NCBI RefSeq assembly: GCF_030347395.1 | Contig: NZ_CP128170.1 | Span: 1,116,001-1,180,000, forward strand | Direction: 5' to 3' | Length of the DNA: 64,000 nucleotides | Source of the DNA: Microbacterium sp. ET2 | GTDB lineage: Bacteria; Actinomycetota; Actinomycetes; Actinomycetales; Microbacteriaceae | Part shown: in pieces, positions 15,497-26,219 of the stretch | How positions within the stretch are numbered: the stretch's first letter is position 1 | How the letters are laid out: each line of letters starts with the position of its first letter | The notes under the pieces: model-generated | What the model was told of the DNA's origin: nothing | The model's database searches: none | What the model saw: the letters and a program-made list of their open reading frames with translations, nothing else | Position numbers and translations under genes: made by a program

Positions 15497-15934
15497 TCAC
15501 CCGGCATCGTCGCGGATCAAGGCAGTGACACGTATCTCCACGCGCATCCCGGGGAGCCCGAATGCCGCCACACCCGTCTGCGTCCAGATCGGAAAACGAT
15601 CACCCATGCGGTCGCGAAACTGCTGCACCATCAGCCGGTTGTCCTCTTCGCCGATGACATCGCCGTCCGGGAGATGGTAAGAGTTCACATGGACCACATC
15701 GCGCCAGCTCGCGCCAGCAGCCGCAAGCGTGCGCTCGACGTTGTCGAACGCACGGATGATCTCGTCCTCGAGCGTGCCGACAAGCGTCAGATCGTCGCCC
15801 CACCCTCCCTGACCTGAGGTCTCGACGCGTTGCCCGATCCTCAAGGCCTGCGAATAGTGCAGACCTTTTCTCAGCGTGTCACCATATCCCGGAGTCGCGA
15901 AGAACCGCGGACTTTCCTCACTCGCGTCAACCAT
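15497..15934 (-). CDS. RidA/YjgF-family protein
   Basis: 145 residues, close to the family's usual 125-150. Seen: ETSGQGGWGDD, IIRAFDNVERTLAAAGASWRDVVHVNSYHLP and the C-terminal MRVEIRVTALIRDD, whose Arg corresponds to the conserved carboxylate-binding Arg of RidA enamine/imine deaminases. The GVAAFGLPGMRVEI block replaces the more common VAALP-GA-VEIE. It may hydrolyse reactive imines, or act in a specific catabolic route as many RidA subgroups do. AAGGAG stands eight bases before the ATG. It is a stand-alone gene; bases 15935-16117 upstream show no further gene. Confidence 0.85.
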   Translation of the reverse strand: MVDASEESPRFFATPGYGDTLRKGLHYSQALRIGQRVETSGQGGWGDDLTLVGTLEDEIIRAFDNVERTLAAAGASWRDVVHVNSYHLPDGDVIGEEDNRLMVQQFRDRMGDRFPIWTQTGVAAFGLPGMRVEIRVTALIRDDAG

Positions 15935-16389: not shown

Positions 16390-17772
16390 TCACGCCTTCG
16401 CGAGCCCGTAGATCGGGCTCTTCGCCTGCTCCGCCTCGTGGTCGGGTCCGAGCGGGATGCCGGTGCGGTCGCGCAGCACGAGCGTCGCCGCGAGGCCGAG
16501 CACCGTCATCCCCGCGAGGTAGAGGGCGACCGACCAGGTCGAACCGGTGGCCTGCACGAGCGCCGTCGCGATCGTCGGAGCGAAAGCGCCGCCGAGGATG
16601 GCCCCGATCGCGTACGAGATCGACACTCCGGAGAACCGGATGGAGGCCGGGAACAGCTCGGCGTAGTACGCAGCCTGCTGGCCGTAGGTGAAGCCCAGGC
16701 CGATGGCGAGGATCGCCAATCCCGTGAAGAGGAGACCGATGTCACCGGTGTTCACGAGGGGGAACAGGGTGAGTACGCCCACCAACTGCAGCAGCCAGCC
16801 GCCGATGTAGGTGGTGCGACGACCGATCTTGTCGCTGAGCCACCCGGCGACCCACGTGGAGGCCAGCCAGAACACCGCCGAGCCGGTGACGGCGAGGAGC
16901 ACGCTGCTGCGCTCGAGCGCGAGCGGGCCCTCGGGGTTGGTGGCGTAGTTCTGGATGTAGCCGCCGGTGGTCATGTAGCCGACGGCGTTGTTGCCGGCGA
17001 AGACGAGGGCGGCGATGAACACCAGCAGAGCGTGCTTGCGGAACAGCTGCGCGATGGGGGTGCGGGTTCGTTCCTTGCGCTCGGCGAGCTCGACGAAGAC
17101 CGGGCTCTCCTCGACGCGACGACGGATGTAGTACCCGACGAGGATCAGCACGATCGAGAAGAGGAACGGCACGCGCCAGCCCCACTCGAGGAAAGCGTCG
17201 CCGGGGGCGAGCACCGACATCAGCGCCATCATCCCCGACGCGAGCAGCAGGCCGATGGGCACGCCGATCTGGGGCGATGCGCCGAAGAGTCCGCGCTTGC
17301 GCTTCGGCGCGTGCTCGACGGCCATCAGCACGGCGCCGCCCCACTCGCCACCGGCCGAGATGCCCTGCAGGATGCGCAGGACGATGAGCAGGATGGGCGC
17401 GGCGACACCGATGGCCGCGTATGTGGGCAGGAGCCCGACGAGGGTCGTTGCAACCCCCATGAGAACCAGGGTGATCACCAGCACGATCCGGCGGCCGTAC
17501 TTGTCGCCGAAGTGACCGGCGAGGAAGGCTCCGAGGGGCCGGAAGAGGAAGCTGATGCCGACCGTGAGGAACGACAGGATGATGCCCATCGTCTCGCCGA
17601 GGGGCGCGAAGAAGAGCTGGGCGAAGACCAGCCCCGCCGCCTGGGCGTAGATGAAGAAGTCGTACCACTCGACCGTGGTTCCCACGACGGTCGCGAACAC
17701 GACACGGCGGCGATCTTTCGGTGTACTGATGGTGCCGGTGGGCGTGAACCCCTGTTGCGATGTCTCGCTCAT
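16390..17772 (-). CDS. MFS transporter, metabolite:H+ symporter (MHS) type
   Basis: 460 residues with twelve predicted membrane segments. The family motifs VVFATVVGTTVEWYDFFIYA at the start and GHFGDKYGRRIVL (loop 2-3, MFS motif) are visible, plus RILQGISAGGEWGGAVLM and the second-half copy GWLSDKIGRRTTY. The MHS family moves carboxylates and aromatic acids with protons. ATG 17772 has GAGGAG upstream; the frame beyond it is spurious. It is divergent from the homoprotocatechuate cluster, sharing a promoter region with a GntR-like site, so uptake of 4-hydroxyphenylacetate, homoprotocatechuate or a related acid is likely (inference). Confidence 0.87.
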   Translation of the reverse strand: MSETSQQGFTPTGTISTPKDRRRVVFATVVGTTVEWYDFFIYAQAAGLVFAQLFFAPLGETMGIILSFLTVGISFLFRPLGAFLAGHFGDKYGRRIVLVITLVLMGVATTLVGLLPTYAAIGVAAPILLIVLRILQGISAGGEWGGAVLMAVEHAPKRKRGLFGASPQIGVPIGLLLASGMMALMSVLAPGDAFLEWGWRVPFLFSIVLILVGYYIRRRVEESPVFVELAERKERTRTPIAQLFRKHALLVFIAALVFAGNNAVGYMTTGGYIQNYATNPEGPLALERSSVLLAVTGSAVFWLASTWVAGWLSDKIGRRTTYIGGWLLQLVGVLTLFPLVNTGDIGLLFTGLAILAIGLGFTYGQQAAYYAELFPASIRFSGVSISYAIGAILGGAFAPTIATALVQATGSTWSVALYLAGMTVLGLAATLVLRDRTGIPLGPDHEAEQAKSPIYGLAKA

Positions 17773-17854: not shown

Positions 17855-17890
17855 TTGGAATATGCCGCAAGTGCGGAGGCAAGGGAGCTC

Positions 17891-19390
17891 ATGACTGAAC
17901 ACACCGCTGTGACGGATGCCGCTGATCGGCGGTTCACCGCGCTCCCCCAGCGCCCGGGGAAGATCGTGGCGATTCACCTCAGCTACGCCTCGCGTGCCGA
18001 CCAGCGCGGACGCCGTCCCGCCGCGCCGTCGTACTTCTTCAAGCCGTCGAGCTCCGTCGCCGCCTCCGGCGACACCGTCGAGCGCCCGGTCGGCACCGAA
18101 CTGCTCGCTTTCGAGGGCGAAGTCGCGCTCATCATCGGCACCGATGCCCGCCGCCTCGGCGTCGACGAGGCGTGGTCGCACGTCGGCTGGGTCACCGCGT
18201 CCAACGACTTCGGCCTCTACGACCTGCGCGCGAACGACAAGGGGTCCAACGTCCGCTCCAAGGGCCGCGACGGATACACACCGCTCGGCCCCCGACTCAT
18301 CGATGCGCGGGCGGTCGACCCCGGCGGCCTGCGCGTCCGCGCATGGGTGAACGGCGAGCTCGCTCAGGATGACACCACGGACGGGATGATCTTCCCCTTC
18401 ACCCAGCTCATCGCCGACCTGTCGCAGCACATGACCCTCGAGCGCGGCGACGTCATCCTCACCGGCACGCCGGCGGGGTCGTCGGTGGTCGTTCCCGGCG
18501 ACGTCGTCGAGGTCGAGGTGGATGCCCCTCACGCGCCCGGCGCGCCCTCGTCAGGCCGGCTGCGGTCGACGGTCGTGCAGGGCGAGGAGCCGTTCGCCGC
18601 GACCGTCGGCTCCCTTCCCGCCGTCGACGACCTGCAGCGCGCCGAAGCGTGGGGCTCGCGCGAGGCGGCAGGGCTTCCCACCGACTCTGCTCCGAAGCTC
18701 GCGCCCGATCTTCGCGACAAGCTCGAGCGCGCACCGGTCGCGGGTCTCTCGCAGCAACTGCGCAAGCGCGGCCTGAACAACGTCACGATCGACGGCGTCC
18801 GGCCGCTGCATCCCGCGAAGAAGCTCATCGGCCTCGCCCGCACCCTACGCTTCGTGCCGAACCGGGAAGACCTCTTCACAAGCCACGGCGGCGGCTACAA
18901 CGCGCAGAAGCGCGCGTTCGACGCGGTCGGTGACGGCGAAGTGCTGGTCATCGAAGCGCGAGGCGAGGCCGGGTCGGGCACGCTCGGCGACATCTTGGCA
19001 ATCAGGGCGCACGCGCGCGGCGCGGCCGGAATCGTCACCGACGGCGGCGTCCGGGATGTCGACGCCGTGGCGGCGGTCGGCATCCCCGTCTACACCGCGG
19101 GCCCACACCCCGCGGTGCTCGGCCGACGACACGTGCCGTGGGACGCCGACCTCACGATCGCGTGCGGCGGAACCACCGTCCAGCCCGGCGACATCGTCGT
19201 CGGCGACGCGGACGGTGTCATCGTGATCCCTCCTGCCCTCGTCGAGGAGGTCGTCGACGCGGCACTGGAGCAGGAGATCGAAGACGGCTGGATCGCCGAG
19301 CAAGTCACCCAGGGGCATCCGGTCGACGGACTCTTCCCCCTCGCCGGCAAGTGGAAGGAACGGTACCGGGCATGGCGAGCGGAGAAGTGA
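17891..19390 (+). CDS. Fused FAH-family hydrolase/isomerase and RraA-like aldolase/decarboxylase
   Basis: 499 residues in two domains. Residues about 23-235 are a fumarylacetoacetate-hydrolase (HpaG-like) domain with metal ligands FEGEVAL (Glu75, Glu77) and ASNDFGLYDL (Asp106), and TGTPAGSSVVVPGD. After a linker, residues about 280-465 are RraA-like (HMG/CHA aldolase superfamily), with the active-site block IVTDGGVRD (Arg388, Asp389) and a late GDADGVIVIP. In E. coli, HpaG is a tandem of two FAH domains that decarboxylates and then isomerises the ring-cleavage product. Here one FAH copy is replaced by RraA, a superfamily that contains oxaloacetate decarboxylases. A split of decarboxylase and isomerase roles between domains is inference. 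ATG 17891 has AAGGGAG close upstream. Confidence 0.85.
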   Translation: MTEHTAVTDAADRRFTALPQRPGKIVAIHLSYASRADQRGRRPAAPSYFFKPSSSVAASGDTVERPVGTELLAFEGEVALIIGTDARRLGVDEAWSHVGWVTASNDFGLYDLRANDKGSNVRSKGRDGYTPLGPRLIDARAVDPGGLRVRAWVNGELAQDDTTDGMIFPFTQLIADLSQHMTLERGDVILTGTPAGSSVVVPGDVVEVEVDAPHAPGAPSSGRLRSTVVQGEEPFAATVGSLPAVDDLQRAEAWGSREAAGLPTDSAPKLAPDLRDKLERAPVAGLSQQLRKRGLNNVTIDGVRPLHPAKKLIGLARTLRFVPNREDLFTSHGGGYNAQKRAFDAVGDGEVLVIEARGEAGSGTLGDILAIRAHARGAAGIVTDGGVRDVDAVAAVGIPVYTAGPHPAVLGRRHVPWDADLTIACGGTTVQPGDIVVGDADGVIVIPPALVEEVVDAALEQEIEDGWIAEQVTQGHPVDGLFPLAGKWKERYRAWRAEK

Positions 19391-20073
19391 CCGCGCAGGC
19401 GGCGAGCCTGAGCAAATCGCAGCGCGCTTATCACTGGGTGAAGGAGCGCATCGCCTCGCAGGAGTTCACCCCCGGTTATCGGCTGGTGCTCGGTACCATC
19501 GCCGCCGAGCTCGATATGAGCGTCGTCCCCGTCCGCGAGGCGATCCGCCAGCTCGAAGCCGAAGGCCTCGTGACCTTCGAGCGCAACGTCGGCGCCCGGG
19601 TCTCGATGGTCGACGACACGCAGTACCGCTTCAGCATGCAGGCCCTGTCGATCCTCGAGGGCACCGCGACGGCGTTGGCCGCTCGCCGGCTGACCGTGGA
19701 CGACATCCGTCATGCCCGCGGTGTCAATGAGCGGATGATCGAATCGCTCGCGGACTTCGACCCCCGCTCCTTCACCCGGCTGAACCAGGAGTTCCACGCC
19801 ACGCTCTACGGCAAGTGCGCGAACCCCCGGATGCTCGAGCTCGTCGAGTCGGAGTGGGCCCGTCTCGGGCACCTGCGCGACTCGACCTTCAGCTTCGTCC
19901 CGGGGCGCGCGCAGGAGTCGGTGCAGGAGCACGAGAACATCCTTCGCCTCATCGAGGCCGGCGCGCCGCTCGGCGAGATCGAGAAGGCCGCACGGCGCCA
20001 CCGCTCGGCCACCCTCGACGCCTACATGATCCACGAACACCCCGACGAGACCCTCGGCCTGCCGGCCTTCTGA
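19372..20073 (+). CDS. GntR-family (FCD domain) transcriptional regulator
   Basis: 233 residues. N-terminal winged HTH: RAYHWVKERIASQEFTPGYRL, then ELDMSVVPVREAIRQLEAEGLV, the GntR signature. The C-terminal FCD domain has FTRLNQEFHATLYGKCANPRML (metal/ligand-binding segment with conserved His) and ENILRLIEAG. It overlaps the FAH-RraA gene by 19 bases, so it is co-transcribed with the catabolic genes. Likely autoregulator of the cluster, acting at sites 17843 and 24393. A GTG at 19387 is an alternative start. Confidence 0.87.
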   Translation: MASGEVTAQAASLSKSQRAYHWVKERIASQEFTPGYRLVLGTIAAELDMSVVPVREAIRQLEAEGLVTFERNVGARVSMVDDTQYRFSMQALSILEGTATALAARRLTVDDIRHARGVNERMIESLADFDPRSFTRLNQEFHATLYGKCANPRMLELVESEWARLGHLRDSTFSFVPGRAQESVQEHENILRLIEAGAPLGEIEKAARRHRSATLDAYMIHEHPDETLGLPAF

Positions 20074-20091: not shown

Positions 20092-21612
20092 ATGACAGAC
20101 ACCGCCGCGCGCACCACCGAGCGCCATGTGCCCGCTGACCTCCCCGATCACATCCAGCACTACATCGGCGGCGAATTCGTCGACTCCGTCGACGGCGCGA
20201 CCTTCGACGTCCTCGACCCGGTCTCGAACGAGACCTACCTGACCGCGGCGGCAGGGAAGAAGGCCGACATCGATCGCGCCGTCGCCGCGGCGCGCGTCGC
20301 GTTCACCGAGGGGCCGTGGCCGAGGATGCTGCCGCGGGAGCGTTCGCGGATCCTCCACCGCATCGCCGACATCGTCGAGTCGCGCGACGCCCGCCTCGCC
20401 GAGCTCGAATCCTTCGATTCGGGCCTGCCGATCACGCAGGCTCTCGGTCAGGCTCGCCGGGCTGCGGAGAACTTTCGCTTCTTCGCCGACCTGATCGTCG
20501 CGCAAGCCGATGACACGTACAAGGTGCCGGGGCGCCAGATCAACTACGTCAACCGCAAGCCCATCGGCGTCGCTGGCCTGATCACGCCCTGGAACACGCC
20601 GTTCATGCTCGAGTCATGGAAGCTGGGACCTGCCCTCGCGACCGGCAATACCGTTGTGCTCAAGCCCGCCGAGTTCACGCCGCTCTCGGCGTCGCTGTGG
20701 GCGGGCATCTTCAAGGAGGCGGGGCTGCCGACCGGGGTGTTCAACCTGGTCAACGGTCTCGGCGAGGAGGCCGGAGACGCACTGGTGAAGCACCCCGACG
20801 TGCCGCTCATCTCGTTCACCGGAGAGAGCCGCACGGGCCAGATCATCTTCGGCAACGCCGCCCCCTACCTCAAGGGTCTCTCGATGGAACTCGGCGGCAA
20901 GTCGCCGGCTGTCATCTTCGCCGATGCCGACCTCGACGCGGCCATCGATGCGACGATCTTCGGAGTGTTCTCGCTCAACGGCGAGCGCTGCACGGCGGGA
21001 AGCCGGATCCTCGTTCAGCGCGAGGTGTACGACGAGTTCGTCGAGCGCTACGCCGCACAGGCGAAGCGGGTGCGCGTCGGCTATCCGCACAATCCCGCCA
21101 CCGAGGTCGCCGCGCTTGTGCACCCCGAGCACTTCGAGAAGGTGATGAGCTACGTCGAGATCGGCAAGTCCGAGGGGCGCCTGGTCGCCGGCGGTGGCCG
21201 CCCCGAGGGGTTCGAGACCGGCAATTTCGTCGAGCCGACCGTGTTCGCCGACGTCGCGCCGGACGCGCGGATCTTCCAAGAGGAGATCTTCGGCCCGGTC
21301 GTCGCCATCACTCCGTTCGACACCGACGAAGAGGCGCTCGAGCTCGCCAACAGCGTGAAGTACGGACTGGCGGCCTACATCTGGACGAACGACCTGAAGC
21401 GCGCCCACAACTTCTCGCAGGCGGTCGAGGCGGGCATGGTGTGGCTGAACTCCAACAACGTCCGCGACCTCCGCACCCCCTTCGGCGGCGTGAAGGCCTC
21501 CGGCCTCGGCCACGAGGGCGGCTACCGGTCGATCGACTTCTACACCGATCAGCAGGCCGTGCACATCACGCTCGGCGCCGTCCACAACCCCACCTTCGGC
21601 AAGGGAGACTGA
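20092..21612 (+). CDS. hpaE: Aldehyde dehydrogenase, probably 5-carboxymethyl-2-hydroxymuconate-semialdehyde dehydrogenase
   Basis: 506 residues, usual for NAD(P)-dependent ALDH. Cofactor segment GVAGLITPWNTPFMLESWK, VLKPAEFTP, general base Glu266 in SMELGGKSP and nucleophile Cys300 in GERCTAGSR are all present; EEIFGPV follows. It closely resembles HpaE, and sits directly before the ring-cleavage dioxygenase HpaD. Expected reaction: oxidation of the 2,3-cleavage product of homoprotocatechuate to 5-carboxymethyl-2-hydroxymuconate. GAAGGAG precedes the ATG. One base separates it from hpaD. Confidence 0.88.
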   Translation: MTDTAARTTERHVPADLPDHIQHYIGGEFVDSVDGATFDVLDPVSNETYLTAAAGKKADIDRAVAAARVAFTEGPWPRMLPRERSRILHRIADIVESRDARLAELESFDSGLPITQALGQARRAAENFRFFADLIVAQADDTYKVPGRQINYVNRKPIGVAGLITPWNTPFMLESWKLGPALATGNTVVLKPAEFTPLSASLWAGIFKEAGLPTGVFNLVNGLGEEAGDALVKHPDVPLISFTGESRTGQIIFGNAAPYLKGLSMELGGKSPAVIFADADLDAAIDATIFGVFSLNGERCTAGSRILVQREVYDEFVERYAAQAKRVRVGYPHNPATEVAALVHPEHFEKVMSYVEIGKSEGRLVAGGGRPEGFETGNFVEPTVFADVAPDARIFQEEIFGPVVAITPFDTDEEALELANSVKYGLAAYIWTNDLKRAHNFSQAVEAGMVWLNSNNVRDLRTPFGGVKASGLGHEGGYRSIDFYTDQQAVHITLGAVHNPTFGKGD

Positions 21613-21613
21613 G

Positions 21614-22759
21614 ATGAGTCACCGCGACACCATGACCCTCACCTCCTCCGGCTTCTGGGTGAGCCAGGAGGCGCCGATTCAGTCGGCGAACCCGATCCCC
21701 ACCCCGACGTCGCCGGCGCCCGACATCCTGCGATGTGCGTACATGGAGCTCGTCGTCACCGACCTCGCCGCCTCGAGGGTGTTCTATGTCGACGTGCTCG
21801 GTCTGCACGTGACGGAGGAGGATGACACCGCGATCTACCTCCGCTCGACCGAGGAGTTCATCCATCACAACCTCGTCCTCCGCCAGGGCCCGATCGCGGC
21901 CGTCGCCGCGTTCTCGTACCGCGTGCGCTCGGCCGAAGACCTCGACAAAGCGGTGGCGTTCTATACCGAGCTCGGATGCGAGGTGCGGCGTGAGCCGAAC
22001 GGGTTCACCAAGGGCATCGGAGACTCGGTACGGGTGATCGATCCGCTCGGCTTCCCCTACGAGTTCTTCTTCGCCACCGAGCACGTCGAGCGCCTGTCGT
22101 GGCGGTACGACCTGTACACCCCGGGCGAGCTCGTGCGTCTGGACCACTTCAACCAGGTCACCCCCGACGTGCCCCGGGCGGTGAACTTCATGCAGTCCCT
22201 CGGGTTCCGCGTCACCGAAGACATCCAGGACGAGGAGGGCACGGTCTACGCCGCCTGGATGCGGCGGAAACCCACCGTGCACGACACCGCGATGACGGGC
22301 GGCGACGGCCCGCGAATGCACCATGTCTGCTTCGCGACGCACGAGAAGCACAACATCCTCGCCATCTGCGACAAGCTCGGTGCGCTCCGTCGCTCCGACG
22401 CGATCGAGCGAGGACCCGGTCGTCACGGCGTCTCGAACGCCTTCTACCTGTACCTGCGCGACCCCGACGGGCACCGCGTCGAGGTCTACACGCAGGACTA
22501 CTACACGGGCGACCCCGATAACCCGGTGGTCACCTGGGATGTGCACGACAACCAGCGTCGCGATTGGTGGGGCAACCCCGTCGTCCCTTCCTGGTACACC
22601 GAGGCCTCACTCGTCCTCGACCTCGACGGTAACCCGCAGCCCGTCGTCGCCCGCACCGATTCCTCGGAGATGGCGGTGACGATCGGTGCCGACGGATTCT
22701 CGTACACCCGCGCGCCGGAGCAGAACGACGGCGAGTTCAAGCTCGGCAATCAGCTCTGA
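21614..22759 (+). CDS. hpaD: 3,4-dihydroxyphenylacetate (homoprotocatechuate) 2,3-dioxygenase
   Basis: 381 residues, a two-module vicinal-oxygen-chelate extradiol dioxygenase like the actinobacterial HPCD and MndD enzymes (about 365 residues). N-terminal module: RCAYMELVVTDLAASRVFYVD. Catalytic C-terminal module: VRLDHFNQVTPDVPR with His178, PRMHHVCFATHEKHN with the second His, and GHRVEVYTQDYYTGDPDN with Glu290. These form the 2-His-1-carboxylate site for Fe(II) or Mn(II). The segment SNAFYLYLRDPDGHR matches the substrate pocket of this family. It cleaves the aromatic ring next to the hydroxyls. Central gene of the cluster and the best functional marker in it. Confidence 0.92.
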   Translation: MSHRDTMTLTSSGFWVSQEAPIQSANPIPTPTSPAPDILRCAYMELVVTDLAASRVFYVDVLGLHVTEEDDTAIYLRSTEEFIHHNLVLRQGPIAAVAAFSYRVRSAEDLDKAVAFYTELGCEVRREPNGFTKGIGDSVRVIDPLGFPYEFFFATEHVERLSWRYDLYTPGELVRLDHFNQVTPDVPRAVNFMQSLGFRVTEDIQDEEGTVYAAWMRRKPTVHDTAMTGGDGPRMHHVCFATHEKHNILAICDKLGALRRSDAIERGPGRHGVSNAFYLYLRDPDGHRVEVYTQDYYTGDPDNPVVTWDVHDNQRRDWWGNPVVPSWYTEASLVLDLDGNPQPVVARTDSSEMAVTIGADGFSYTRAPEQNDGEFKLGNQL

Positions 22760-22777: not shown

Positions 22778-23563
22778 ATGCTGCCTGCTGACACGATCGC
22801 GGAGATCGCCGAAGAGCTCGCCGAGGCCGATCGCACCAACGGTGTGATCCCCCGGATCACCGCCCGCTACCCCGATGCCACGGTCGAGGACTCGTACGCG
22901 ATCCAGGGAGTGTGGCGAGACCGCAACATCGCCGCGGGGCGTCGCCTCGTAGGCCGGAAAATCGGCCTGACCTCCAAGGCGATGCAGGAGGCGACCGGCA
23001 TCACCGAGCCGGATTACGGAGTGATGTTCGACGACACCGTCTACCGCTCCGGCGACGAGATCGACGCCTCCCGCTACTCCAACGTGCGCATCGAAGTCGA
23101 GCTCGCCTTCGTGCTGGGCCGACCGCTGGAAGGCCCGGACTGCACCCTGGAGGACGCCCTCGCCGCGATCGACTACGCCGTCCCCGCCCTCGAGGTGCTC
23201 AATTCGCACATCGCGCTGGAGGGCCGGACGATCGTCGACACCATCTCCGACAACGCCGCCTACGGAGCCATGGTGCTCGGCGAGGTGCACAAACGGCCCG
23301 ATGAGATCGACCTGCGCTGGGTGCCCGGGGTGCTCTCGCGAAACGGCGAGATCGTCGAGACCGGCGTCGCCGCCGGCGTGCTCGGTCATCCCGCCACCGG
23401 CGTCGCGTGGCTGGCGAACAAGTTCCACCAGCACGGCGCTCGCCTCGAAGCGGGAGAGATCATCCTCGCCGGGTCGTTCACCCGCCCGATGTGGGTGGCC
23501 GCCGGCGACGAGGTGCTGTGCGACTACGGACCGATGGGACAGATCACATGCCGCTTCGTCTGA
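22778..23563 (+). CDS. hpaH: 2-oxohept-3-ene-1,7-dioate hydratase
   Basis: 261 residues, as usual for HpaH/MhpD hydratases. It has GRRLVGRKIGLTSKAMQEATG, the metal-binding RIEVELAFVLGRPL, PALEVLNSH and GPMGQITCRF at the C-terminus. It adds water to the dienoate formed after decarboxylation and isomerisation. ACGAGGAGG lies upstream of ATG 22778. It overlaps hpaI by 16 bases. Confidence 0.92.
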   Translation: MLPADTIAEIAEELAEADRTNGVIPRITARYPDATVEDSYAIQGVWRDRNIAAGRRLVGRKIGLTSKAMQEATGITEPDYGVMFDDTVYRSGDEIDASRYSNVRIEVELAFVLGRPLEGPDCTLEDALAAIDYAVPALEVLNSHIALEGRTIVDTISDNAAYGAMVLGEVHKRPDEIDLRWVPGVLSRNGEIVETGVAAGVLGHPATGVAWLANKFHQHGARLEAGEIILAGSFTRPMWVAAGDEVLCDYGPMGQITCRFV

Positions 23564-24354
23564 GCCAGACCTTCCGCGCCGCCCTCTCCGCCTCCGACAG
23601 ACCGCTCGCGGGCATCTGGGTGTGCTCCGGCTCGCCGCTCGTGGCCGAGATCTGCGCGGGCTCGGGGCTCGACTGGACGCTCATCGACATGGAGCACGCG
23701 CCCAACGGACTGGAATCGGTGCTCGCTCAGCTGCAGGCCGTGGCGGCATACCCCATCACCCCGGTCGTGCGGGTGCCGAGCAACGACCCGGTCGTCATCA
23801 AGCAGGTGCTCGACCTCGGCGCGCAGAACCTCCTCGTCCCGATGGTGTCGTCGAAGGCGGATGCGGAGGCCGCCGTGTCGGCGGTGCGCTATCCCCCTCG
23901 CGGGCAACGCGGCGTCGGGTCGGCCCTGGGCCGCTCGGCCCGATGGAACCGCGTCGACGGGTACCTCGCCGACGCGGATCAGCACGTCTCGCTGTTCGTC
24001 CAGATCGAGACGGCGGCGGGAGTGGACGCGGCAGCGGAGATCGCCTGCGTCGACGGCGTCGACGGCGTCTTCGTCGGACCGAGCGACCTCGCCGCCTCCC
24101 TCGGTTTGCTCGGGCAGCAGACGCATCCCGATGTGATCGCCGCCGTGCACCGCACGTTCGAGGCGGTGCGAGCGGCGGGCAAGCCGGTCGGCGTGAATGC
24201 GTTCGACCCCGAGGCGGCGCAGTCCTACCTCGACGCCGGGGCGAGCTTCCTCCTCGTCGCCGCGGACGTGTCGATCCTGGCGCGCAGCTCTGAGGCACTC
24301 GCCGCGCGATGGTCGCCCGCCGTGACTGCGGAGACGGAGCGCGCGAGCTACTGA
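23548..24354 (+). CDS. hpaI: 4-hydroxy-2-oxoheptane-1,7-dioate aldolase
   Basis: 268 residues of the HpcH/HpaI class II aldolase family. Seen: LAGIWVCSGSPLVAEICAGSGLDW, TLIDMEHAPNG (conserved Asp, Glu, His), PVVRVPSND, FVQIETAAGVDAAAEIA (metal ligand Glu) and GVFVGPSDLAASLG. It splits the hydrated C7 diacid to pyruvate and succinic semialdehyde. Start ATG 23548 is inside the end of hpaH, indicating coupled translation. A longer open frame upstream is spurious. Confidence 0.92.
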   Translation: MPLRLSQTFRAALSASDRPLAGIWVCSGSPLVAEICAGSGLDWTLIDMEHAPNGLESVLAQLQAVAAYPITPVVRVPSNDPVVIKQVLDLGAQNLLVPMVSSKADAEAAVSAVRYPPRGQRGVGSALGRSARWNRVDGYLADADQHVSLFVQIETAAGVDAAAEIACVDGVDGVFVGPSDLAASLGLLGQQTHPDVIAAVHRTFEAVRAAGKPVGVNAFDPEAAQSYLDAGASFLLVAADVSILARSSEALAARWSPAVTAETERASY

Positions 24355-24539: not shown

Positions 24540-26219
24540 ATGCCCACCGTCTCCGCGCACGTCGCCCACACCCTCGCCCGCCACATCGAGCACGTGTTCG
24601 GCGTGATGGGCAACGGCAACGCCTACGTCCTCGACGCACTCGAGCGCGAGACGGAGGCGACCTTCACCGCGGTGCGGCACGAAGCGGGGGCTGTGGTCGC
24701 CGCGGACGCCTACCACCGCGCATCCGGCCGCTTGGCAGCCGCCACCGCCACCTACGGTGCCGGATTCACCAACACCCTCACTCCCCTGGCCGAGGCAGCC
24801 CAGGGGCGCGTGCCGCTCGTGCTCGTCGTGGGCGATGCCCCGACGTCGGGGCCCCGCGCGTGGGACGTCGACCAGATCGCGCTGGCGGCGGCCGTGGGCG
24901 TCCGCACCTACACGGTCGGCCGCGCCGATGCCGCGGCAACCACCGTCATCGCCATCGAGCACGCCCTGACGTACCGGGTCCCCGTCGTGCTCGCGATTCC
25001 CTACGACGTCGTCACCACCGAGGCGGGGCCCGTGCCCGACGCACCCGCACCGCGCCTTCCCGGGCCGCAGGCCCCCGCGACCGCCTTCGCCCGCGCTGCC
25101 GTGCGCGAGATCGCGGCAGCTCTCCGCGAGGCGAGACGCCCCTTCCTGCTCGCCGGTCGCGGGGCGTGGATCTCCGGCGCAGGCGGCGCGCTCGGGGCCC
25201 TCGCCGACGCGACCGGCGCGATCACCGCGAGCTCAGCGCTGGCCCGCGGCATCTTCCCCCGCGGCGCGTACGACCTCGGCGTGACCGGGGGCTTCGGCGC
25301 CGAAGGGGCGATGGATCTCGTGCGCGAGGCAGACGTGGCGGTGGTCTTCGGCGCCTCCCTCAACCAGTTCACGATGAGATTCGGCGAGCTGTTCGCTCCG
25401 ACCACGCGGGTATTCCAGGTCGACCTCGCACCGACCGCCACCCACCCGCACGTCGGCGGATACGTCCGCGCGGACGCAGCGCTCGTGGCGCAGGAAATAG
25501 TTGCAGAACTCGCCCGCCTCGGGGCCTCTCCGAGCGGATGGCGGGAGTCGGTCGATCTCGCCCCGCTCCGCCGCTACGACGAGGGAGACGGGGTCGCCCC
25601 CGACGGCCGCCTCGACCCGCGTTCCGTCGCCGCACGCATCGGACGGCTCCTCCCGGAGGACCGGGTCGTCGTCTCCGACGGCGGTCACTTCATCGGGTGG
25701 GCCAACATGTACTGGCCGGTCGCCTCCCCCGACCGGATGATGATGGTCGGCACGGCGTACCAGTCGATCGGTCTCGGGTGGCCGTCGGTGCCGGGCGCCG
25801 CACTCGCGCACCTGGACGCGACCGTCGTCCTCACCACGGGCGATGGGGGCGGGCTGATGGCCCTCGCCGATCTCGAGTCGGCGGTGCGCGTCGCCGGCGG
25901 GCGGGGGCTTGCGGTCGTCTGGAACGACGCCGCCTACGGGGCGGAGATCAACCTGTACGGACTGAAGGGTCTCGCCCGCGGGCCGATGCTGATCCCCCAG
26001 GTCGATTTCGCCGCGCTTGCCTCCGGAGTGGGGGCGGAAGGTGTCGTCGTCGAGCGGATGGACGACCTCGGCCGCATCGCCTCATGGGCCGCGACGCCCG
26101 CGGAGGACCGTCGGTTCCTCGTTCTGGACTGCCGGATCTCGGGCAATGTCATCGCGCCCTATCAGGAGGAGATTCTGCGGGTGAACGGCGTGACCGTGCC
26201 GGCGACAGCACGGGCCTGA
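24540..26219 (+). CDS. ThDP-dependent enzyme of the acetolactate synthase/benzoylformate decarboxylase superfamily
   Basis: 559 residues in the usual three domains. The catalytic Glu48 is in AVRHEAGAVV. ThDP motif starts at GDG (434-436) in TTGDGGGLMALADLES, and ends in VVWNDAAYGAEINLYG. The central domain holds FLLAGRGAWISGAGG. The sequence does not fix the reaction; a 2-oxo acid decarboxylase or carboligase acting on an aryl pyruvate or aryl glyoxylate is plausible beside an aryl-acetate pathway. It shares a GntR-like operator with the hpa genes. RBS GAGGG lies before ATG 24540. The stop abuts, without overlap, the stop of the convergent membrane gene at 26220. Confidence 0.85.
   Translation: MPTVSAHVAHTLARHIEHVFGVMGNGNAYVLDALERETEATFTAVRHEAGAVVAADAYHRASGRLAAATATYGAGFTNTLTPLAEAAQGRVPLVLVVGDAPTSGPRAWDVDQIALAAAVGVRTYTVGRADAAATTVIAIEHALTYRVPVVLAIPYDVVTTEAGPVPDAPAPRLPGPQAPATAFARAAVREIAAALREARRPFLLAGRGAWISGAGGALGALADATGAITASSALARGIFPRGAYDLGVTGGFGAEGAMDLVREADVAVVFGASLNQFTMRFGELFAPTTRVFQVDLAPTATHPHVGGYVRADAALVAQEIVAELARLGASPSGWRESVDLAPLRRYDEGDGVAPDGRLDPRSVAARIGRLLPEDRVVVSDGGHFIGWANMYWPVASPDRMMMVGTAYQSIGLGWPSVPGAALAHLDATVVLTTGDGGGLMALADLESAVRVAGGRGLAVVWNDAAYGAEINLYGLKGLARGPMLIPQVDFAALASGVGAEGVVVERMDDLGRIASWAATPAEDRRFLVLDCRISGNVIAPYQEEILRVNGVTVPATARA

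Follow-up and report, generated by a model that had tools for sequence, protein, structure and literature searches.

A conserved fusion of FAH and RraA-like domains as a candidate HpaG counterpart in actinomycetes

Homoprotocatechuate is a tyrosine-derived ring compound that is broken down by a bacterial route. Here we describe a protein that joins a fumarylacetoacetate hydrolase (FAH) domain to an RraA-like domain within this route; the fusion is real, conserved and widespread, and its genomic context gives good support for its being the actinomycete protein that fills the role of HpaG, although its second domain is not that of HpaG. The best overall explanation, to which we give a probability of roughly 0.55 from sequence comparisons, is that it is the actinomycete counterpart of HpaG, composed of an FAH decarboxylase and an RraA isomerase. 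That the whole protein would perform the HpaG steps is very probable; it would convert the tri-acid released by HpaE (CHM, whose keto tautomer is COHED/OPET) to OHED, on which the next enzyme acts.

The fusion gene and its operon

The window analysed here is a stretch of 64,000 nucleotides from Microbacterium sp. ET2. The fusion, a 499-residue protein recognised by Pfam, NCBIfam and alignment, is encoded on the forward strand at 17891..19390 by an uninterrupted frame that runs from an ATG at 17891-17893 to a stop codon at 19388-19390; reading the sequence directly, we found a ribosome-binding site, AAGGGAG, on the same strand at 17881..17887, 3 bases upstream of the ATG. Residues 24-229 form the FAH domain (17960..18577, forward strand; Pfam FAA_hydrolase, 3.9e-49) and residues 285-445 a domain of the RraA/class II pyruvate aldolase type (18743..19225, forward strand; Pfam RraA-like, 7.7e-34). 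We aligned 104 fusions, that of the window and those of 103 further loci. The metal triad of the FAH half, Glu75, Glu77 and Asp106, was kept in all 104, and Lys124 is also present; in the RraA half Asp367-X20-Arg388-Asp389 was equally invariant. We take Asp-X20-Arg-Asp to be the named motif of the RraA/class II pyruvate aldolase fold. Since these residues are conserved in 104 of 104 sequences and both domains lie in one open frame at 103 of 103 loci, the fusion is neither a chance product nor a sequencing artefact. The preliminary description of this DNA, which had reported a single protein of two domains with their active-site residues kept, is thus borne out by Pfam, NCBIfam and the alignment. 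Also invariant in the RraA half are Arg320, Arg325, Lys340, His406, Arg412 and His414, which could hold the extra carboxylates of a substrate. The His-Glu dyad of the FAH family is changed: its His is replaced by Arg35 in all 104 sequences, and its Glu, at position 38, persists in 14 and gives way to Gln in the other 90. A metal site that lacks the dyad would fit decarboxylation or tautomerisation rather than hydrolysis.

The architecture is already catalogued. NCBIfam NF009399/PRK12764, identical to the fusion in architecture, matches it over nearly its full length (residues 10-497; 829.8 bits, cut-off 444) and bears the name 'fumarylacetoacetate hydrolase family protein', which gives no reaction; several family members carry the JGI names OPET decarboxylase/HHDD isomerase. 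Residues 269-498 belong to the RraA-like subfamily PRK08245 (233.1 bits, cut-off 208). The protein scores below the cut-offs both of the RNase E regulator RraA (TIGR01935, 55.7 vs 123.8; PRK09372, 55.4 vs 136) and of the LigK/PcmE aldolase (TIGR02798, 77.3 bits vs 304.5). The HpaG models are likewise not reached (TIGR02303 for HpaG-C, 149 vs 276.4; TIGR02305 for HpaG-N, 98.6 vs 228.65). Like HpaG/HpcE, an FAH-FAH protein in E. coli that is split elsewhere into HpaG1 and HpaG2, the fusion consists of two joined modules. Both are encoded by the first gene of an hpa meta operon, contain an FAH domain with a metal triad and hold the same position in the pathway. In contrast to HpaG, whose other module is a metal-less FAH domain, the fusion has no second FAH domain, this place being taken by an RraA fold. 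The order of the modules differs as well, metal-binding FAH then RraA in the fusion but isomerase then decarboxylase in HpaG, and the dyad His present in HpaG-C is absent from the FAH half of the fusion.

The operon reads fusion, GntR, HpaE, HpaD, HpaH, HpaI and ThDP enzyme, all on the forward strand, with a divergent MFS symporter. To describe its neighbours we used tblastn at 1e-10 on the best 80 of 329 confirmed relatives from a scan of GTDB species contigs, a set that leans to close kin, mostly Microbacterium, because only these best 80 were retained; the FAH and RraA halves were found in all 80. A GntR/FCD regulator (19372..20073; homologues in 78 of the 80) overlaps the stop codon of the fusion. 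It is followed by the CHMS dehydrogenase HpaE (20092..21612; TIGR02299, 648.5 bits, above the cut-off of 638.35; 79 loci, paralogues possibly included) and the homoprotocatechuate 2,3-dioxygenase HpaD (21614..22759; TIGR02295, 430.8 bits, above the cut-off of 321.4; 77 loci), the residues 25-380 of which have homoprotocatechuate 2,3-dioxygenases as their top PDB matches (3.4e-190). Next come an HpaH-like hydratase (22778..23563; TIGR02312, 330.8 bits, under the cut-off of 351.5; 74 loci) and an HpaI-like aldolase of 268 residues, its start inferred (23548..24354; TIGR02311, 307.3 bits with a longer frame, under the cut-off of 368.8; 73 loci). The hpa neighbourhood that had been proposed is therefore confirmed, with HpaE and HpaD above their cut-offs and HpaH and HpaI below theirs. 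The ThDP-dependent enzyme at 24540..26219, with homologues in 43 loci, reached the cut-off of none of the 25 NCBIfam models listed and is possibly a decarboxylase that feeds the pathway. On the reverse strand lies an MFS metabolite/H+ symporter, its start also inferred (16390..17772; 69 loci, again possibly with paralogues). A RidA gene at 15497-15934 was considered as a member of the module and rejected, since none of the 80 loci has a homologue of it at 1e-10.

Distribution, absence of HpaF and two pathway endings

In a sample of the order, 48 of 198 genomes contained the fusion above its cut-off and 51 contained HpaD, at 52 places. All but one of the 48 fusions lay 1.6-3.4 kb from HpaD, and the 48th (G281) was near a contig edge. 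Seen from HpaD, 47 of the 52 places had the fusion, four had a solo RraA gene and one, the second HpaD of G117, had neither. The fusion is the usual counterpart of HpaG in the sampled order. It was also found above the cut-off in 24 of 345 genomes of the class and in 13 of 246 genomes of one genus, probably Streptomyces. FAH-only matches of 205-237 bits were considered as possible split halves; six stretches with such matches (L094-L099) had an ALDH somewhere in each and no RraA match at 1e-6. Arthrobacter Rue61a is reported to grow on homoprotocatechuate and 4-hydroxyphenylacetate, and a meta pathway has been proposed for it (PMC3534580).

For a wider tabulation we joined the best 80 of 329 GTDB relatives to 6 of 20 and 17 of 20 further stretches, the remainder being without the fusion. 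Among these 103 loci HpaE was found in 98 and HpaD in 97. By thresholds of our own, 75 had both HpaH and HpaI without a DapA-like gene, 20 (L100, L104, L107 and L117-L133) had a DapA-family gene but lacked HpaH as well as HpaI, and none had both sets; the other eight were incomplete, seven lying on short contigs or near contig ends and one (L070) having an HpaH match under the length threshold. In the 20 DapA-type loci, HpaH and HpaI were absent at the laxer 1e-6 also. As to whether the fusion always sits beside hpaD, hpaE, hpaH and hpaI, this holds in the main for HpaE and HpaD and less regularly for HpaH and HpaI, which a DapA-family gene replaces in 20 of 103 loci. As to unrelated contexts, we found one clear exception, the Streptomyces locus L078, where the fusion adjoins genes of another module and is without HpaE and HpaD; a further locus, L117, had no HpaD within the 19 kb read.

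The absence of HpaH beside the DapA-family gene suggests that this protein is a single hydratase-aldolase that would form the ending of the homoprotocatechuate pathway. A DapA-type HpaI is already a known idea, since TIGR02313 ('HpaI-NOT-DapA', 2,4-dihydroxyhept-2-ene-1,7-dioate aldolase) exists and gave 350 and 352 bits, below its cut-off of 396.7, with the two DapA-like proteins that were tested. The DapA-type fusions are also partly distinct in sequence: Glu38 in the FAH half and Met336 in the RraA half are confined to the same 14 sequences out of 104, each from a DapA-type locus (14 of the 20), a pairing that probably reflects shared descent. Because the fusion is kept under either ending, OHED or its dienol is supported as its product.

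Seven of the 20 DapA-type loci, all from one genus, probably Streptomyces, have an HpaB-like monooxygenase nearby; the one tested gave 606.9 bits with TIGR02309, above the cut-off of 480.2. A flavin monooxygenase of the phenol-hydroxylase type was observed in the neighbourhood of 59 of the 80 fusion loci (for example L020:6533-8428). One annotated representative combines PF01494 and PF07976 and matches PRK08294 with 965 bits; the enzyme may make homoprotocatechuate where HpaB is absent. Protocatechuate and 3-hydroxybenzoate, substrates that a gene of this type suggests, were not adopted, since the dioxygenases that HpaD matches are characterised ones acting on homoprotocatechuate and since the HpaB-like gene adjoins the fusion in seven loci. 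The genome of the window has, in addition, a separate cluster (L007, 2139787-2143242) that resembles a meta pathway of the protocatechuate/gallate type. By eye, we take its genes to be an extradiol dioxygenase, a PrpF/GalD-like tautomerase, an LmbE-like GalB, a LigK-like RraA aldolase and a LigM/DesA-like demethylase.

In E. coli BL21(DE3) the gene order is hpaG, E, D, F, H, I; by comparison, the fusion occupies the hpaG slot and D is followed by H without an hpaF in between. Using PF02962, we found no match to HpaF in the genome of the window or in any of 27 fusion-bearing genomes, and the same model had matches in eight genomes among 396 from the phylum; the eight belong to a single genus, with seven above the cut-off and the best at 43.6 bits. 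HpaF is short and divergent and the search used PF02962, so that the absence of HpaF from fusion genomes is likely rather than proved. Two excerpts bear on this. The tri-acid is reported to isomerise also without an enzyme (PMC12718150), and Corynebacterium aurimucosum is described as having a cluster hpaGLEDHI, the gene order of the window, with hpaF elsewhere in the genome (PMC2830990), which weakens the case for a general loss of HpaF. Taken with HpaE in 98 and HpaD in 97 of the 103 loci, the lack of HpaF matches in 27 genomes supports the earlier proposal that the stretch of the pathway from HpaE to HpaH is managed in another way here.

Roles of the two halves

Aligned with E. coli HpaG, the FAH half of the fusion has the triad of HpaG-C, which HpaG-N has lost. 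According to portions of a 2025 paper on Acinetobacter that completes the assignment of the homoprotocatechuate pathway enzymes, decarboxylation is ascribed to the C half of HpaG and isomerisation to its N half, the assignments in E. coli HpaG resting on structure alone, and two FAH proteins perform best together (PMC12718150). We therefore find no support for the first proposal as it was worded, in which decarboxylation may have passed to the RraA half, as the triad of the decarboxylase type lies in the FAH half; this makes isomerisation the likelier task of the RraA half. We consider it somewhat probable that the FAH half decarboxylates, and would give about even odds to isomerisation by the RraA half. 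In such a scheme Glu75, Glu77 and Asp106 of the FAH half would coordinate a divalent metal to which the tri-acid binds through its 2-oxo-carboxylate end, the enol would be ketonised and the C5 carboxylate would leave as CO2; as the hydrolytic His is gone, no activation of water would be expected. In FAHD1 the His-Glu dyad holds a water, and ketonisation of the enol has been attributed, as a proposal, to a network of Lys and Asp (PMC8398924); FAH-domain enzymes are described as ketonising enols too (PMC8398924, PMC10825186). The RraA half, with its class II pyruvate-aldolase fold, would hold a metal-bound 2-oxo acid enolate through Asp367, Arg388 and Asp389 and protonate the dienolate HHDD to the 2-oxo-3-enoate OHED.

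Among the closest known proteins is the HMG/CHA aldolase (LigK/GalC, RraA superfamily), which shares the Asp-X20-Arg-Asp motif. Arg388 of the fusion aligns with its Arg123, although the invariant His406...Gly411-Arg412...His414...Pro416 stretch has no match in the aligned segment of this aldolase (3noj). The genome of the window also has a LigK-like gene, so named by eye, separate from the fusion. Exchange of Arg123 for Lys is reported to lower kcat 181-fold, and the aldolase exchanges the methyl protons of pyruvate, which amounts to protonation of an enolate (PMC5065237). The same source counts oxaloacetate decarboxylases among RraA-fold enzymes, so decarboxylation by the RraA half would be equally natural chemistry.

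The tasks may accordingly be distributed the other way round, a reading that we regard as rather unlikely: the RraA half would handle OPET like a vinylogous oxaloacetate and decarboxylate it, with the FAH half serving as a tautomerase/isomerase that covers HpaF and the HpaG isomerase. The HMG/CHA aldolase itself decarboxylates oxaloacetate, as reported in PMC5065237, and FAH-domain proteins are characterised in PMC10825186 as fast enol-keto tautomerases and slow decarboxylases. Moreover, the FAH half, like HpaG-N, is without His at the dyad position, and the 27 fusion genomes gave no match to HpaF (PF02962). Against this, HpaG-N is the assigned isomerase and is without the metal triad, whereas the FAH half has it and scores higher with HpaG-C (149 bits) than with HpaG-N (98.6).

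Solo RraA genes and the meaning of the fusion

The four HpaD places with solo RraA belong to four genomes of one genus. Their RraA proteins are 63-72% identical to the RraA half, and 24-106 bases separate the matched stretches of RraA and of the HpaD-type gene. HpaI stands beside RraA in all four and HpaH in three; this FAH half and a close HpaE are absent, the best HpaE-like match being 44% identical, with none at 1e-90 in G283. Solo RraA also occurs with GntR, HpaH and HpaI in G287 and G1016 and with HpaH, HpaI, GntR and a 40% ALDH in G987; in G1072 a more distant RraA (50%) is found with GntR and RidA and without HpaH. RraA therefore accompanies the hydratase or the aldolase even where this FAH half is missing, which fits a job directly before the hydratase, to the extent that the substrate of the accompanying genes allows.

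These genes form a second module. In the four genomes and in G287 and G1016 it comprises a flavin monooxygenase, DUF4440, an FAH protein with an intact dyad, RidA, an amidohydrolase and DUF3500, some annotated per genome and the remainder recognised by homology; in one genome tested there is also an SSADH-like dehydrogenase, under its cut-off. The distance between RraA and this other FAH gene is about 15-23 kb in the four genomes; in G287 it is 5 kb. Given the presence of such a gene, RraA may share its pathway with a second enzyme of this kind. RraA, HpaH and HpaI with further genes of the module were observed in L088-L092, L101, L108-L112, L114 and L078, some of which add an HpaD at 38-40% and an ABC transporter of the sugar type. 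L078 has the fused form with HpaH and HpaI; nearby are HpaB- and HpaC-like genes, FAH and a RidA that shares 69% identity with its namesake in the second module, the remaining members being recognised by eye only. The RidA of the window (15497-15934) has only short weak matches to that of the module. Solo RraA was considered as the ancestor; a quick tree placed the fused forms deepest and solo RraA nested inside, but with its outgroup on very long branches (length 10) and with metagenome pieces for many of the solo rows, the direction is unsure.

An improbable third reading leaves the HpaG steps to the FAH half and gives the RraA half an accessory part as oxaloacetate decarboxylase or pyruvate aldolase, or one in allostery or oligomerisation. 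In its favour, the solved structure nearest to the RraA half, that of the stand-alone Streptomyces coelicolor RraAS2 (5x15; top PDB sequence match, 133.9 bits), is titled an RNase ES inhibitor family member. An AF2 model of the fusion matched 5x15 with a TM-score of 0.91 by target length; the model is mediocre (pLDDT 72.5, pTM 0.46) and served for fold matching only, and for this reason no active-site geometry is claimed. To our knowledge, many RraA-family proteins are without a known substrate, which is a further point for an accessory role. Against it, all 104 sequences share Asp367, Arg388, Asp389, His406, Arg412 and His414, RraA persists beside HpaH and/or HpaI where this FAH half is absent, and HpaG needs two activities whereas the FAH half is a single domain.

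In the open-access literature we found no paper that unites homoprotocatechuate, fumarylacetoacetate hydrolase and RraA, none on an RraA/fumarylacetoacetate hydrolase decarboxylase fusion, no text on this RraA half and no paper on dihydrodipicolinate synthase with homoprotocatechuate in Streptomyces. We tentatively suggest, at less than even odds, that the RraA half represents a new function of its fold, a meta-cleavage dienol isomerase (or vinylogous decarboxylase) fused to a dyad-less FAH decarboxylase, and that in DapA-type clusters one hydratase-aldolase takes OHED and replaces HpaH and HpaI. If true, such clusters would convert the ring-cleavage product to pyruvate and succinate semialdehyde with three proteins. 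As a natural swap of one half of HpaG for an unrelated fold, the fusion would show which chemistry is separable, and it would avoid the confusion of two similar FAH domains when the halves are dissected. The finding would correct database names that cite the FAH half only, and would give a reaction to proteins now named regulators of RNase E.
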